A DNA stretch of 64,000 bases, taken from assembly GCF_947496515.1 (NCBI RefSeq), contig NZ_CANMDB010000006.1:62001-126000 (forward strand). Direction: 5' to 3'. This stretch comes from an uncultured Roseobacter sp. Lineage in GTDB: Bacteria; Pseudomonadota; Alphaproteobacteria; Rhodobacterales; Rhodobacteraceae. Within the stretch, counting starts at the first letter, position 1. Each line of letters opens with the position of its first letter. Shown here one piece after another: positions 107 through 56,950 of this stretch. A program made the translations under genes and the position numbers. The notes below the pieces were generated by a model. It did no database searches and was not told the DNA's origin. It saw only the letters and a list, made by a program, of their open reading frames with translations.

Positions 107-1456
107 ATGATGCAGTTTCCGACAACCTCAAATCGGGGGCGATATGGCCTCGCCGTGCTGGCGGTGGCGAGCCTGCTGAGCGCCTGCAACGAGCCCGATA
201 CCATTTTGCCCGGCAAGCGCGAAGACATCCGCTCTGCGATTGCTGACGGGGATACGAGCACGCTTGCCGCCGTGACCCGGGACGCCCCGCGCGCGATCCG
301 ACTGCCCGCCGCGCAAAGCAATACGGAGTGGCCCCAAGGCATCGGCTCACCCGCCTTCCGGGTCAGCCATGCTGCCCTGTCCGGTGCACCACAGCGGATC
401 TGGAGTGCGGACATCGGTGCAGGCGACGGACGCCGCCAGCGGATCACAGCAGATCCGGTCGTGGCCGGGGGGCTGGTCTACACGCTGGACGCCCAGGCAC
501 AGGTCACGGCCACATCGCTGGCCGGTCAGACGGTTTGGCGGACCGACGTGGCACCCGCACGCGATGATGCGGCGGCGGCAACGGGTGGTGGGCTTTCCTA
601 CGACGGGGGCCGGGTCTACGCGGCTGTGGGGCATGGCGCGCTCGTGGCGCTGGATGCGGCCAGCGGGAATGTCATCTGGCGGCAGAACCTCGAGGGCACC
701 GGCTCCGGCAGGCCCACGATTTCGGGTGGTCTGGTCTATGTGACCGCCGGGGATGATACGGGCATTGCCCTCAATGCCGATACCGGGCGCATTGTGTGGC
801 AGCTGTCGGCATCGCCCGATATCAACAACGTCCTGGGCGCGCCGGCGCCTGCGGTCTCGGAGGATCTGGCGATCTTTGCCTTTGGCTCCGGCGAAGTGCA
901 GGCCGTGTTCCGTCGCGGCGGGTTGCGTCGCTGGGATGCCTCCGCTGTGGGTCAGCGGTTTGCGCGGGCTCTGGGGGCGGTCGAGGACGTCACCGGCGCT
1001 CCGGTGATCGCGGGCAACACGGTCTATGTGGGTAATCAGGCGGGGCGGATCGTGGCGCTGAACCTCGATTCCGGTGCAAGGCTGTGGACCGCGCGCGAAG
1101 GGGCCGTCGGGCCGGTCCTGCCCGTGGGCGACAGTGTTTTCGTGATTTCTGAACTCGGAGAGCTTTTGCGGCTGGATGCCTCCGATGGCACACGGATCTG
1201 GGGCACGCAGATGCCCAATTTCGTGAATGACAAGCCGCGCAGGCGGTCCGAAGTCTTTGCGCATCACGGTCCCGTTCTGGCGGGCGGGCGCATCTACGTG
1301 GCCTCCAACGACGGGCTGTTGCGCGCGTTCGACCCCGAAAGCGGCGCGCTCGTGCGTTCCACCCAGATCCCTGGCGGTGCGACGACCGCGCCGGTCGTGG
1401 CGGGCAACGTGCTGTACGTGGTATCCACCGACGGTGATTTGCACGCTTTTCGTTGA
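107..1456 (+). CDS. bamB: Outer membrane assembly lipoprotein BamB-like (PQQ/beta-propeller)
   Basis: Probable BamB subunit of the BAM complex, which helps insert beta-barrel proteins into the outer membrane. The N-terminus is a lipoprotein signal with lipobox LLSAC, followed by a beta-propeller of PQQ-like blades with repeating motifs such as ALDAASGNVIW, ALNADTGRIVW and ALNLDSGARLW. I place the start at the ATG at 107 because a GAAGGCGAG ribosome site lies about 7 bases upstream. In-frame starts at 71 (TTG, inside a hairpin) and 83 are less likely. It is followed 51 bases later by der, the usual bamB-der order. BamB is the best fit among PQQ-repeat proteins because of the lipobox and the neighbour. 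Confidence 0.88.
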   Translation: MMQFPTTSNRGRYGLAVLAVASLLSACNEPDTILPGKREDIRSAIADGDTSTLAAVTRDAPRAIRLPAAQSNTEWPQGIGSPAFRVSHAALSGAPQRIWSADIGAGDGRRQRITADPVVAGGLVYTLDAQAQVTATSLAGQTVWRTDVAPARDDAAAATGGGLSYDGGRVYAAVGHGALVALDAASGNVIWRQNLEGTGSGRPTISGGLVYVTAGDDTGIALNADTGRIVWQLSASPDINNVLGAPAPAVSEDLAIFAFGSGEVQAVFRRGGLRRWDASAVGQRFARALGAVEDVTGAPVIAGNTVYVGNQAGRIVALNLDSGARLWTAREGAVGPVLPVGDSVFVISELGELLRLDASDGTRIWGTQMPNFVNDKPRRRSEVFAHHGPVLAGGRIYVASNDGLLRAFDPESGALVRSTQIPGGATTAPVVAGNVLYVVSTDGDLHAFR

Positions 1457-1507
1457 CGCTCATCTGGGGTAAAGCGCGGGCTTGTTGCAGCGCTCGGAGC
1501 CTTTGAG

Positions 1508-3004
1508 ATGTCCTTTACCCTTGCTATTGTGGGCAGGCCCAATGTGGGGAAATCCACGCTCTTTAACCGACTTGTCGGCAAGCGTCTGGCCTTGGTTGAT
1601 GACCAGCCCGGGGTGACCCGCGATCTGCGCGAGGGGGCGGCACGGCTGGCGGATCTGCGTTTTACCGCCATCGACACCGCCGGGCTGGAGGATGTCACCG
1701 ACGACAGCCTGCAGGGCCGCATGCGGCGTCTGACCGAGCGTGCAGTGGACATGGCCGATGTGTGCCTTTTTATCGTGGATGCGCGGGTCGGCATCACCCC
1801 CTCCGATCTGGTCTTTGCCGACATCCTGCGCAAACGCGCGGGCCACGTGATCCTGGCGGCGAACAAGGCAGAGGGCGCAGCCGCGGATGCCGGTGTGCTG
1901 GAGGCCTATTCGCTGGGTCTGGGCGAGCCCATCCGGCTGTCAGCGGAACATGGTGAGGGGCTCAACGATCTTTATACCCATCTGATGCCGCTGGCGGACG
2001 GTTTCGCCGCGCGCGCCGCCGAGGACGCGCCCGAGGTGGATGTGACCCTCGACGAGGACGAGGGCGATATGGAGGCCGAGACGCCGATGCCCACGGCCGC
2101 CAAGCCGCTGCAGGTGGCCGTCGTCGGGCGGCCCAACGCGGGCAAATCGACGCTGATCAACCGGATCCTGGGCGAAGATCGTCTGCTCACCGGGCCAGAG
2201 GCGGGGATCACCCGGGATGCGATCTCGCTTCGGATTGACTGGGCGGGGCCGGAAAGCCGGGACAACCCTGAGGGTGATGTGATTCCCATGCGGATCTTTG
2301 ACACCGCGGGTATGCGCAAGAAAGCCAAGGTGCAGGAAAAGCTCGAAAAGCTGTCGGTTGGTGACGGTTTGCGGGCGGTGAAGTTTGCCGAAGTCGTCGT
2401 GGTGCTGCTGGATGCGGCGATCCCCTTCGAGCAGCAGGATCTGCGTATCGCCGATCTGGCCGAACGGGAGGGGCGTGCGGTCGTGGTCGCGGTGAATAAA
2501 TGGGACATAGAAGAGGACCGGCAGGGCAAGCTGCGCGACCTCAAGGAGAGCTTTGAGCGGCTTTTGCCGCAGTTGCGGGGGGCGCCGCTGGTGACGGTCT
2601 CGGCCCAGACGGGACGGGGTCTTGACCGGCTGCATGCGGCGATCCTGCGCGCCTATGAGGTCTGGAACAGGCGGGTGACCACCGCGCAGCTCAACCGGTG
2701 GCTGTCGGGCATGCTGGAGGCGCATCCGCCTCCCGCACCGCAAGGCAAGCGCATCAAGCTGCGCTACATGACCCAGGCCAAGACGCGGCCCCCTGGTTTC
2801 GTGGTGATGTGCAGCCATCCCGACAAGGTGCCGGAAAGCTACAATCGCTATCTGGTCAACGGGCTGCGGCTGGACTTTGACATGCCGGGCACGCCGATCC
2901 GGCTGTGGATGCGCGGCCAGAACGAGGCAAACCCGTACAAAGGGCGCAAGAAGGCGGCACCGTCAAAACTGCGCAAACACACTGACGGTCGGCGGCGGGA
3001 CTGA
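1508..3004 (+). CDS. der: Ribosome biogenesis GTPase Der (EngA)
   Basis: Tandem-GTPase Der, needed for assembly of the 50S ribosomal subunit. Two complete G domains are visible. The first has GRPNVGKST near residue 9, DTAGLE and NKAE. The second has GRPNAGKST near residue 208, DTAGM and NKWD. A C-terminal KH-like domain ends in a basic tail ([13 protein letters not shown]). An acidic linker of about 35 residues joins the G domains. At 498 aa it is slightly longer than the E. coli protein, as expected with this linker. It follows bamB and ends just before a dispersed repeat. Confidence 0.97.
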
Positions 3005-3025
3005 AGCCGGGCAAAGAGGTTTTAT

Positions 3026-3059
3026 GCCTCCGGCGGGAGTTTATCCGGCAAGATGAAAG
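3026..3059 (+). repeat. Dispersed GCCTCCGGCGGGAG repeat, copy 1
   Basis: The intergenic element begins GCCTCCGGCGGGAGTTTA and continues into a GGCAAGATGAAAG tail. An 18-base core is identical to a second copy at 8088-8118. It can form a short CTCC/GGAG hairpin followed by T residues. I recall this kind of sequence as a common intergenic repeat in Rhodobacteraceae genomes. Here it sits between the convergent der and TspO-like genes, where it could help terminate transcription. Confidence 0.7.
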
Positions 3060-3091
3060 AGCGGGCGTGCGGTGCGGGCAGCGGCGGCGTG

Positions 3092-3817
3092 TCAGGATGC
3101 GGTGCGTTGGCGGTCTGCCCGCCAGGCCTTGAACGCGGGGGGGATCAGGGCCGCGGCACCGCCTGCCGCGAGAGCCGCCACATAGACGTCACCTGTCATG
3201 TTGGGCAGGATGATGGCCACCAACGCCCATATGACGGCCAGTGCATAGGTCGGTATGCCGCCCAGGTTCGATTGTACCGCGGCTGCCAGTACCAGCGCCA
3301 GAAACACAAAGACAAGGGCGGCGGTCGGTGCGCTCACCCAGCCGTAGCCTGCCGTTAGCAGGCCGAGCAGGACACAGCTCGCCGCACTCAACCAACCGGC
3401 GTAGAGACCGACCGGGTAGGCGGCCCACAGACGGTCCTCGCGCGGCGCGCGGAAGAGGGCCACCAGGGCGCTCAGCAGCATTGCCCAGATAAGGATCCCT
3501 GCCCAGATGGGGCTGCGCATGGCGACGGGCAGCCAGAGGGTGCCAATGGCGAGCGACATACATAAGGGCGGCCGCATGGCCTGCCACGCGGGGCTGTCCG
3601 CGCGTCGCAGGAGGCCAAACCCCATGCCCAGCACCAGCCACAAATAGATCACGCCCCAGATGGCGAAGGCATAGCCCGCGGGCTGCACCGGCGGATCGTT
3701 TTGCGGCACCGGGAACTGATCGGGTCTGAACCCTCCGAAATCGCGGACCAGAAAGGCCGCCGCCGCAAAGCTCAGGCTCAGCACGAAGGTCAGCAGCGCC
3801 AGTATCTTCGGTGTCAT
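3092..3817 (-). CDS. TspO/MBR-like tryptophan-rich integral membrane protein
   Basis: A 241-aa polytopic membrane protein with about seven hydrophobic segments and many Trp residues. The motif PAGYAFAIWGVIYLWL resembles the TspO/MBR (tryptophan-rich sensory protein) superfamily, members of which bind tetrapyrroles and related ligands. It is longer than canonical five-helix TspO (about 160 aa), so it is at best a distant relative and function cannot be assigned. The start at 3817 is supported by AAAGGAAC upstream. The longer open frame to 4030 overlaps the neighbouring plus-strand gene and looks non-coding. Confidence 0.7.
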   Translation of the reverse strand: MTPKILALLTFVLSLSFAAAAFLVRDFGGFRPDQFPVPQNDPPVQPAGYAFAIWGVIYLWLVLGMGFGLLRRADSPAWQAMRPPLCMSLAIGTLWLPVAMRSPIWAGILIWAMLLSALVALFRAPREDRLWAAYPVGLYAGWLSAASCVLLGLLTAGYGWVSAPTAALVFVFLALVLAAAVQSNLGGIPTYALAVIWALVAIILPNMTGDVYVAALAAGGAAALIPPAFKAWRADRQRTAS

Positions 3818-3959
3818 CGCAGTGTTCCTTTCGTCTCGCAATCTCGTGCGATTTTGCTGTGCGGAGGTGTAGCACCGCAGGCCGTCAGGGCAAGCGCGCT
3901 GGCTGGACGCCGCGCGTGCCGCAGGGTAGGACGCGCCATCACAGGTGACGAGGCCCCCT

Positions 3960-50931: not shown

Positions 50932-53079
50932 TCAGCTCTGAGGCATTTTCAGCACGAGATTGCGGTTGCCTTTCTTGTAGCGAAGCTCCCCTTCGCCAAT
51001 GGCCGACACCCGGCCACCGTCGATCCGGTCCCCGACCTGTACCTTCTTATAGCGGCCATTGGACAGGCGCACCAACGCGCGGCGTGCCGAGGGCGTGCCA
51101 TAGACGCCGATCAGGTTGACCCGGCGCAGATTGATCGCATTGCGCAAGGTGGCTTCGCGCGCGACGGAGGCGCTGGTGGGGATCTTGGGTGCCACAGCGG
51201 GTGCTACCGAGGCTGCGACCGGTGCGACGGCGACTGCTGTGTTGCGCTGTGCGCGGGCGACAATCTGGCCGAAGTTACCCGGTCTCAAGCCGGGGCGTTG
51301 AGAAGCGGTGCGTGCCAACAAATCGTTACTGGCGCGAAGGTTGACGGAAGCCGCGTTGTCCAACGGCACGAGGCTCGCGGCAGCGGCACTGGCGACACGG
51401 ACGGCAAGATCGGGCCGCGCTGGCGGTCGTAGCTTCGCCAGCTCTGATTGGCTCGACCCGTCGGGCGGGGCGCGCTCGGTCGTCTCCACAGGGTCTGCAG
51501 GTCGCGTCTGGGGCCGAAAGGCGGCGAGTTGCGCATCGGTTTCTGTCGTCTCCGCACTGCGGGTGGGAAAGGCCGCAGGGCGCACGGGCGGGCCGCCCGC
51601 AAATATCGGTACGCCATCGGGGTTGAGCGTGCCATCGGACGAGGCAATCACGAGGCCGCGTGCATCCAGCGTAAACGTGGTACCTGCCGCCGCGGGTGAG
51701 ATGGGAGGCTCAAAGGCCTCATCTCCCGAGAAGAGTGCCACACTTGGCAGGGCGATCGTATCAACGGTAGGTTCGATAGGGTCGATGCTGACAATGTAGA
51801 GATCTTCGAGATCCACCAGCGGCGGCGGCGACGGGACATCGGGCGCCTGCGGCCAGATGCCTGTCGCGGCATAGCTGGTGCGCAGCGCATCGGGTGCGGG
51901 AGCGCGCAAGGCATCCAGCACGGCGGCGTCCTCATCCGACAATCGCGCCTCGCGCTCCGGCGTGACGGGACCTTCCGCGTTCTGATCAACGGGCGGGGCC
52001 ACGTCAATGACGGTTGTCTGAAGCGTTTCCGCCTGGTCCCCGGCAAGCCAACCTGCCACCGTCGTCTTCAACCCGCCAAAACTCCACGTGCCGACCCCCA
52101 CCAGGCCAATCACAACGATCGCGCCGAGCGTCAACGGCAGCAGCCGACGTCCCGGAGCATCCGTTGCCGGTGCGCGGGCACCAAAGACGGTCATGCGCGC
52201 CGCTTCGCTGGGTGGCTTTGCGTCGGGCCGGGGATGTGTATCGCGGGCGCGGGGTTTCGGGACGAAGGGTTCGGGTTCTTCCGCAAAGCCTGCAGCATGG
52301 GCGGAGCCTGTCGCGCGCTGTGCATAAACGGCAGGTCCCTTGCGATGACCGGGGCTGCGGCGGCTGGCAAATGTCGTGCGCTGTGAGGCAGTCTCGCGTG
52401 GTGGCAGCGAGGGGTTGGTGACGCTGGGTACCTGCGCCTCGGTGTCATCCTCCGCGTCTGCCGCGCGGACCTTGGGCGATGATTGCCGTGCGGAGCGGAA
52501 GGTGGGTGGGGGCGGGCCCTCGACCGGGACGCTGCCCGGTGGCGCCAGCACCGAGATCCCGTCAGGCTCGACCGTCTGTCCCGGACCCAGCAGCTCACGG
52601 GCCGCACGTGTCGGTCCGAAATAGGGCTCCCACGGGGTGACGGCATCCTCCGGTGCCGCGACAAAGCTGATCGGGTTGAAGCCATGTTGAGTGGCGAAAT
52701 CCTCCGCCTCCAGCAGCGTTTCCAGCGCGACAGCCGCCACATGAGTATGATTGCCGTTGGCGCTGACATCGTAGACCAGATCGTTGATGGCATAGGGTGT
52801 CGCCCCGTCGAGCGCCGTCCGCGCCATATCGCGCCGCTCCGGCATGTGGAGGCCGGGCGTGTCGAGCCACAGGTAGCGGATCTGTTCGTCCGGTATGACC
52901 AGCTTGCTGCGAATGCCGCCGGGTGCCAGTGCGGTGGCCGTCTTCAGCAGCACACCGAGCTCTGCCGCCAGGTCCGAGGCTTGGGGCGATACGGCACCCA
53001 CCTGCCGCCAGCCGCCCGTCGCCCGGTGCAACAGGCCAATGCGATCAAACGAGAGGGTCAGAGCGAAGTTAGGTTTCAT
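50932..53079 (-). CDS. Single-pass scaffold protein with PilM/GspL-like head and GspC/PilP-like tail
   Basis: A 715-aa protein of unusual layout. Residues 1-165 look like the actin-like cytoplasmic fold of PilM/GspL (LTLSFDRIGLLHR, then SKLVIPDEQIRYLWLDTPG and FNPISFVAAPEDA). A long disordered Pro/Ala/Arg-rich stretch leads to one transmembrane helix (about 312-334). A Pro-rich periplasmic region ends in a small domain (LIGVYGTPSARRALVRLSNG...VQVGDRI) like the HR domain of GspC/PilP. No type II secretion or pilus genes are adjacent. Function unknown. Confidence 0.8.
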   Translation of the reverse strand: MKPNFALTLSFDRIGLLHRATGGWRQVGAVSPQASDLAAELGVLLKTATALAPGGIRSKLVIPDEQIRYLWLDTPGLHMPERRDMARTALDGATPYAINDLVYDVSANGNHTHVAAVALETLLEAEDFATQHGFNPISFVAAPEDAVTPWEPYFGPTRAARELLGPGQTVEPDGISVLAPPGSVPVEGPPPPTFRSARQSSPKVRAADAEDDTEAQVPSVTNPSLPPRETASQRTTFASRRSPGHRKGPAVYAQRATGSAHAAGFAEEPEPFVPKPRARDTHPRPDAKPPSEAARMTVFGARAPATDAPGRRLLPLTLGAIVVIGLVGVGTWSFGGLKTTVAGWLAGDQAETLQTTVIDVAPPVDQNAEGPVTPEREARLSDEDAAVLDALRAPAPDALRTSYAATGIWPQAPDVPSPPPLVDLEDLYIVSIDPIEPTVDTIALPSVALFSGDEAFEPPISPAAAGTTFTLDARGLVIASSDGTLNPDGVPIFAGGPPVRPAAFPTRSAETTETDAQLAAFRPQTRPADPVETTERAPPDGSSQSELAKLRPPARPDLAVRVASAAAASLVPLDNAASVNLRASNDLLARTASQRPGLRPGNFGQIVARAQRNTAVAVAPVAASVAPAVAPKIPTSASVAREATLRNAINLRRVNLIGVYGTPSARRALVRLSNGRYKKVQVGDRIDGGRVSAIGEGELRYKKGNRNLVLKMPQS

Positions 53080-55478: not shown

Positions 55479-56486
55479 TCAGCGCATCCAGAAGCCATTG
55501 GACTTGATCCGGTTGCGGATTGCCTGTTCGCGCCGGGGCAGGGCGTTTTGATCAAAGAGCGCGCGCACCTTGGCGCCGCGGCGCTGGTAGACCATGCGCT
55601 TGATGGGCTCGTGCTGTTTGAGCAGTTTCTTGAGCCGGTTGGGGGCGGCAACGTCTTCCAATACGCGGATCGTGTGATCGCTCTCGCGGGCGTAGAGCAG
55701 CGGAAAGAGCCGGTAGTGACAGCTAACCGTTCCATCCAGCAACCCCGGCGGCAGCGCATCGCGCGCGCCTCCCAGAGCATGGATCACCAGCGGCAGCGCG
55801 ATCTGGTCGAGCCACGGAAACAGCGTCTGTGCGCTGAGCGCGTCAGGCGGGTCGTCGCGGATCGCCAGCGCGTAGTCTTCAAAGAGCGCGCCGAACCGCC
55901 GCGGGCAGGCACCGTAAAAGAACCCAGCATTGAAATAGAGGTATCTGCGCCAGTGCTCCTCCGGTTGCCCGGGGTCCAGAGAGCTGGGGAAATCCAGTCC
56001 GAACTTGTCATAGAGCGACTGCCAGATGCCCGCGTAGCCGGGCCCGTAAAGCGCAGGCTTGGGCCAGGTCCCCTCGCGCCGCAGGGAGGCAGAGGGGCGG
56101 TTGAAGTCAAAAGGCACCGCGCCGAGCTCTCCGGTGATCAGCGTATCGGTGTCGAAAAAGAGAAACGGCACGCCTTCGGGCATCTCGCGCAGCAGCTCGA
56201 TCTTGTTGCCCTGCGGATAGTCTTTGCCGAAATGACGGCTCTCAAAGGGCAGTATCCTCGCGCCAAGGCTCTCCAGCATCTCGCGCGCCTCTGCATCTCG
56301 GATGCGCGGATCGCGCGGCCAGTGGGGACCGGGTTGCGGCTCTGCCACGTAAAGCTGACCGGTAAAGCCCGGGCTGCAATGGCGCAACGACGCCGCAAAG
56401 AGCAGCGCCTCGTAGGTCAGGCGACCGTGCTGGGCGACGACCACGACATTGAAGCCGGTTTGTGAGGGCGATCCCGCGTCGGCCAT
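55479..56486 (-). CDS. GT-A-type glycosyltransferase-like protein
   Basis: A 335-aa cytoplasmic protein with a Rossmann-like N-terminus (FNVVVVAQHGRLTYEALLFAASL) and a DxD motif in LFFDTDTLITGEL, as in GT-A nucleotide-sugar transferases such as family 8. LYFNAGFFYGACPRRFG also fits. The start at 56486 is the last ATG before the domain; the frame stays open to 56798 but without coding character. Acceptor and sugar unknown. metY follows 72 bases downstream. Confidence 0.75.
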   Translation of the reverse strand: MADAGSPSQTGFNVVVVAQHGRLTYEALLFAASLRHCSPGFTGQLYVAEPQPGPHWPRDPRIRDAEAREMLESLGARILPFESRHFGKDYPQGNKIELLREMPEGVPFLFFDTDTLITGELGAVPFDFNRPSASLRREGTWPKPALYGPGYAGIWQSLYDKFGLDFPSSLDPGQPEEHWRRYLYFNAGFFYGACPRRFGALFEDYALAIRDDPPDALSAQTLFPWLDQIALPLVIHALGGARDALPPGLLDGTVSCHYRLFPLLYARESDHTIRVLEDVAAPNRLKKLLKQHEPIKRMVYQRRGAKVRALFDQNALPRREQAIRNRIKSNGFWMR

Positions 56487-56950
56487 CTTTGCCCGTTGGT
56501 TGCGTGCAGTTGCGCTCAGCATTGCAGAGGCCTGGCTACTCCACAAGAAGGCTGTGCCCGGGTGGCGAAAACGGCTGGTTTTCGATTGCTGCGTTGAGCC
56601 GTGGCTTGTGTTGAGGGACGCGCTCGGTGGTACCGAGACGTTTCCGTCAACACGGGCCGAGGGCGCTCGATTTTTGCAAGAACCTCGACATCTGGTGCGG
56701 CGGTGACTGTTCGTCACAGGGATGGCGCATAGCCATTGCTTGCAGACATTTTGCAGCTGCCGGGAGCGCGAAAGTCGCGTCTGTCCCCGAGGATGCAAGG
56801 CTCCCCAACGCGCAGCGATACAAAGGCGCCGACGACCGCGAGCAGCTTTCCGACGACGCTCTCAGTATCCCACCAAGCAGAACGATGCCGCGCCAGAAAT
56901 GTGACGCACCTTCCGCGATGTCATTGAAAGGGAGCAAAGATGAAGCGGCA
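56487..56950. other. 464-base stretch without a supported gene
   Basis: Short open frames exist on both strands but none has a ribosome site plus a recognisable family. Two small hairpins are visible: CTCGGT/ACCGAG near 56617-56635 and GTGAC/GTCAC near 56703-56717. It must contain the promoter for the glycosyltransferase-like gene. A small RNA or a remnant gene cannot be excluded. Confidence 0.5.

Follow-up and report, generated by a model that had tools for sequence, protein, structure and literature searches.

The stretch analyzed here, 64,000 nucleotides from an uncultured Roseobacter sp. (the window), contains a gene for a 715-residue protein in which a cytoplasmic head of the kind found in GspL and a C-terminal HR domain of the kind found in GspC stand in one chain. 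GspL, GspM and GspC (L, M and C) make up the inner-membrane platform of type II secretion systems (T2SS). There, according to PMC11981180, the GspL head docks GspE, the HR domain of GspC binds the N0 domain of the secretin, and the CLM complex assembles without the secretin. We favor, with a probability of about 0.6, the reading that the fused protein derives from the L-M-C platform, condensed into a single chain, and acts as a secretin-independent tether.

Make-up and kinship of the fused protein

In an alignment of 102 sequences, the head (residues 1-175) and a periplasmic stretch (395-560) are conserved, the tail (632-715) is very conserved, the cytoplasmic linker is variable, and a single transmembrane (TM) helix is seen at residues ~312-334. 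Nonsynonymous divergence (dN) from ten relatives, used alone for rates because synonymous divergence was saturated or undefined, is 0.07-0.19 for the HR domain, 0.24-0.40 for the head, 0.25-0.50 for the periplasmic stretch and 0.54-0.95 for the cytoplasmic linker, with invariant columns in both the HR domain and the head. The periplasmic linker carries the motif RPxxRP at a mean of 2.36 per protein, compared with 0.022 in shuffles; at least two copies occur in 100 of the 102 proteins and a single copy in just one of the 102 cytoplasmic linkers, counts that come from related sequences and hence from non-independent events.

The predicted structure of the head, a 178-residue model, has its best structural matches in GspL (EpsL/PulL/XpsL) among the PDB chains that Foldseek ranks high, and its profile matches the GspL of T2SS at 96.6%; both routes identify it as an actin-like cytoplasmic domain of the GspL/PilM type. 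Sequence searches against PDB added little, as phmmer with the whole protein gave no match and the head profile gave only chance-level ones, e.g., Centromere protein S. The likeness to GspL, an actin-like head followed by one TM helix, has clear limits. The matched GspL chains are longer than the head model (226-238 residues), no ferredoxin-like PilN domain was found after the TM helix (the 715-residue protein has no Pfam match at E<=1), and the chain continues with a linker and HR domain resembling those of GspC, its gene lying outside any T2SS operon. Nor is the head a complete two-lobed actin-like protein such as PilM of type IVa pili, which is a separate chain of ~336-355 residues (the matched PilM chains have 336-355); PilN and PilO of those pili have no counterpart in the fused chain.

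For the tail, Pfam PilP matches 43 of 43 members at E<=1 (best 1.3e-5; window copy 0.061, below the curated cut-off), and NCBIfam pilP_fam likewise matches all 43 (best 1.3e-8). In the latter comparison the window copy scores 1.5e-5 and 26 bits, below the cut-off of 34.65, and a single-protein NCBIfam search with it gives 3.3e-4, also below cut-off. The tail aligns by hhalign with seven GspC-like proteins, picked by gene order from T2SS clusters, at 94.3%, and its profile finds GspC 7oio among PDB sequences at E 0.045. Pfam T2SSC (PF11356) matches 3 of the 43 members and nothing in the window's own genome. The PilP, pilP_fam and hhalign results support kinship with GspC/PilP, and on sequence grounds the tail is an HR domain of the GspC/PilP type. 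As in GspC (XpsC/OutC) and PilP, it lies at the C-terminus behind a Pro-rich periplasmic linker; unlike in those proteins, it is attached to a GspL-type head and is retained where no secretin is found.

The anatomy proposed in the earlier note on this DNA, a GspL/PilM-like head, one TM helix and a GspC/PilP-like tail in one chain, is therefore borne out, and the single chain is one open reading frame (ORF) whose full-length protein search gives matches in 187 of the 198 genomes of the window's own family in the genome search set. Because defining features fail, the fused protein is not a full member of either GspL or GspC; it is very probably derived from both.

Split relatives and origin

Three relatives carry the corresponding parts as separate genes. 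In G194, three overlapping genes occupy the site next to SIMPL and metZ, with XdhC/MoeA-like genes (by eye) after them. The three encode a GspL-like protein of 380 residues with head, TM helix and PilN domain (PilN over cut-off, 6e-5, as in the GspL of the window genome's own T2SS, 6.6e-6), then a GspM-like protein, and then a GspC-like protein of 294 residues that has a TM helix at its N-terminus, RPxxRP in its linker and an HR domain. G008 and G017 also have the L, M and C pieces, with an L gene that is broken by contig ends and sits near metZ. T2SSM_b is over cut-off in all three M proteins, and profiles of the split L, M and C match those of T2SS at 99.4, 98.5 and 96.5%, with three off-target pairs below 1%. 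The split genes near metZ follow the alphaproteobacterial T2SS operon order; L-M-C order is also found in three T2SS clusters from other families of the class. By profile, the split proteins resemble the XpsCLM complex (PMC11981180), from which the window and the remaining relatives that were read differ in having L and C fused and M missing.

The L gene of G017 is directly preceded by one for a GspE-like protein of 959 residues (L172), in which an MshEN domain (6.9e-16) and a T2SSE domain (3.1e-32) are matched and a Walker A motif is visible by eye; the T2SSE match is interrupted, and the protein has a long linker. The one T2SSE match of G194 lies elsewhere than its split genes.

The fused protein looks like the split L-M-C module minus its PilN and GspM parts, and we infer that the split form came before the fused one. 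The fused gene of G101 sits between metZ and XdhC/MoeA-like genes like those of G194. The Trp of the HR-domain 'xGW' is present in 5/7 T2SS C proteins, 3/3 split C proteins and 3/3 fused proteins (G101, G004, G083) and is replaced by Gly in the eight other aligned fused proteins, a distribution at one residue that fits a split-first direction. In the simplest account, an E-L-M-C module would have become detached, and a later deletion would have fused the head of L with the tail of C. A midpoint-rooted metZ tree was built from 31 of 79 extracted rows; the rows nearest to the window are named Roseobacter.

Secretion machines and rival explanations

The window's own genome has two secretion clusters, T2SS on contig 10 (L135) and Tad on contig 19, both of them apart from the fused gene. 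Pfam confirms GspL (PilN domain), GspM, GspD and GspE in the former and secretin and ATPase in the latter; the remaining members were named by eye and gene order, the GspC-like one also by profile. The GspL of this cluster is short (312 residues), with a truncated head and a PilN domain. With GspL, GspM and a GspC-like protein of its own, the cluster does not need the fused protein to be complete.

Across the family, Pfam secretin has no match in 22 of 198 genomes (G176 and G181 placed among them by elimination), absence here meaning no Pfam match at E<=0.001. T2SSE was tested in 20 of these 22, with no match in 15, a weak sub-cut-off match in two and a clear match in three. Among the 15 with neither match, 14 have the HR domain, and the fifteenth, G030, matches the head profile. 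Six of the 15 (G148, G045, G117, G094, G167 and G176) were read closely, and each has the whole architecture in one ORF: a head by eye, one hydrophobic helix and an HR tail. Consistent co-occurrence with a secretin and a T2SSE-type ATPase, as for a T2SS component, was thus not found, and as far as Pfam searches see, a secretin or GspE-type ATPase as a general requirement is not supported. The presence of the HR domain in these 14 genomes argues against secretin N0 binding as its general role. Overall, the anatomy, the single chain and the non-operon location given in the earlier note stand, and its suggested link to an unlinked secretin or ATPase is not supported as a rule.

Several observations weigh against a secretin-independent derivative of the L-M-C platform. 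A secretin was found in 176 of the 198 family genomes, where a link may exist, and the absences in the others come partly from draft genomes. Against just the T2SS GspL of the window's own family, three in number, the head profile reaches 16.4%, although every T2SS GspL set had been expected to match, and Pfam T2SSL matches 1 of 54 heads (E 0.045). The 98.6% match of the head profile to the split L of G194 and G008 is non-independent, these having been found by that profile itself, and the tail is placed by sequence alone. Three fused proteins (G101, G004, G083) and the C protein of G017 lack RPxxRP. In the metZ tree, the split group has support of 94/73, and the fused G101 groups with it, apart from the rest, at 100/100; there may therefore have been two fusion events, or a regain of the split genes.

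The 176 genomes with a secretin, the presence of both machines in the window's own genome and the roles known for the GspL head and the GspC HR domain (PMC11981180) would suit an auxiliary platform serving the Tad or T2SS of the same cell in trans, with the head binding CpaF/GspE and the HR domain binding RcpA/GspD. We consider this unlikely, given the retention of the HR domain where neither secretin nor T2SSE is matched, the T2SS cluster with L, M and C-like proteins of its own, and a fused gene that adjoins neither machine. More doubtful still is a role as the tether of a surface-glycan machine, in which a GT2-like membrane glycosyltransferase would be bound by the head through its MshEN domain (GspE N1-like). 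GspL heads do bind GspE in known systems, MshEN occurs in 28 of 40 genomes searched, and by eye it forms the N-terminus of a glycosyltransferase-like membrane protein in L177, L178, L185 and L192; however, only 6 of the 15 secretin- and T2SSE-less genomes match it, one below cut-off, and no linkage between the MshEN gene and the fused gene was seen. L178 lies on contig 18 of the window's own genome, and a carA-like gene adjoins the MshEN-glycosyltransferase gene in L178, L185 and L192 (by eye). With PilN and GspM parts lost, and the remaining machine missing too from many genomes, the protein might be taken for a decaying, functionless relic of a lost secretion system, but an HR domain present in 190 of 198 genomes, low dN and invariant columns in HR domain and head, and full-protein matches free of internal stops among those listed make that highly implausible.

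The secretin-independent tether would thus be made up of a GspL cytoplasmic head, one membrane helix, a GspC-type linker and an HR domain, minus the PilN part and all of GspM. By analogy, the head may dock a cytoplasmic partner, as GspL docks GspE, and the long periplasmic linker and HR domain may hold a second partner in the periplasm, in the way GspC holds the N0 domain of the secretin. Judging from the anatomy, the two partners would be joined via one helix and long flexible linkers, and this scaffold across the inner membrane would serve a process without need for a secretin. We infer that the fused protein is an exapted trans-inner-membrane tether; an unknown envelope machine is a possible, and the leading, reading of what it belongs to.

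Gene setting, spread and meaning

In the window, a SIMPL/DUF541 gene is the upstream, divergent neighbor of the fused gene, and HPPD is the downstream, convergent one. Of 69 relative loci with a length of 12 kb or more, 54 contain SIMPL (upstream and divergent in 47 of these), 62 metZ, 51 HPPD and 63 KefB. Because these conserved neighbors are functionally unrelated, the fused gene stands alone; a T2SS operon with an adjoining gspM was not found for it, a gspM-like neighbor being present in the split relatives only. Another neighbor in the window, glycosyltransferase-like by eye and without a Pfam match at E<=1, is present in 46 of the 69 loci. Coordinates are collected in Table 1; gene calling was crude, with some starts called too far upstream (e.g., G083).

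Table 1. Positions of the fused gene, its parts and other features mentioned in the text
Feature	Sequence	Positions	Strand	Remarks
CDS of the 715-residue fused platform protein, including stop codon	window	50932..53079	-	homologues in 187/198 family genomes
Head, residues 1-165, truncated GspL/PilM-type actin-like cytoplasmic domain (predicted)	window	52585..53079	-	
Cytoplasmic linker, residues 166-310, evolving fast	window	52150..52584	-	alignment, motif counts, dN
Transmembrane helix, residues ~312-334	window	52078..52146	-	
Periplasmic stretch, conserved, residues 395-560	window	51400..51897	-	alignment
RPxxRP motif 1, residues 522-527	window	51499..51516	-	
RPxxRP motif 2, residues 551-556	window	51412..51429	-	
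RPxxRP motif 3, residues 595-600	window	51280..51297	-	
Tail, residues 632-715, HR domain of GspC/PilP type	window	50935..51186	-	Pfam, NCBIfam, hhalign
Glycosyltransferase-like gene (by eye)	window	55479-56798	-	
Own T2SS cluster	L135 (contig 10)	18000-37900		
GspE-like gene directly before gspL-like gene	L172 (G017)	1017-3896	-	
MshEN-headed glycosyltransferase-like membrane protein	L178 (contig 18)	106-1995	-	
Stand-alone HR protein	L137	7465-7758	-	
Stand-alone HR protein	L138	7719-8015	-	
Stand-alone HR protein	L139	7577-7837	+	
Stand-alone HR protein	L140	8021-8365	+	
Stand-alone HR protein	L141	7707-8252	+	

Of the 11 family genomes beyond the 187, six match by head profile and one more (G101) by tail profile; four (G033, G122, G162 and G195) have no match by full protein, head profile or tail profile. 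The tail profile matches 170 of the 174 good-quality genomes, and the eight family genomes without a tail match (G030, G033, G122, G147, G155, G162, G195 and G196) are draft assemblies with 50-520 contigs. One contig bearing the gene, L053, is titled Nocardioides marinus, a record that is probably mislabelled or contaminated; the other contig titles are Rhodobacteraceae-type or unplaced alphaproteobacteria. In addition, second HR matches in 5 of 28 genomes searched with the tail profile are short stand-alone HR-domain proteins near purF, 86-181 residues as called and without a TM helix by eye; in L137, L138, L140 and L141, the HR gene is flanked on its other side by SDR-, surE- and pcm-like genes (by eye).

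Finally, it should be noted that among the titles listed by searches of the open-licence PMC literature none describes a GspL-GspC-type fusion, and to the extent of those searches the fusion is undescribed so far. We put at roughly even odds the broader proposal that the family turned a detached L-M-C platform into one protein running an envelope process free of secretin and GspE-type ATPase; if true, the result would be a family of platform proteins that lies outside the type IV filament machines known so far and survives as several genes in a few relatives. If our reading is right, a secretion-machine platform has been reduced to one chain and reused across a large, well-studied bacterial family. 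A single gene would then give access to what the GspL head and the HR domain of GspC can do in the absence of ATPase and secretin, and the finding flags a near-universal envelope protein for genetics in easily grown roseobacters.
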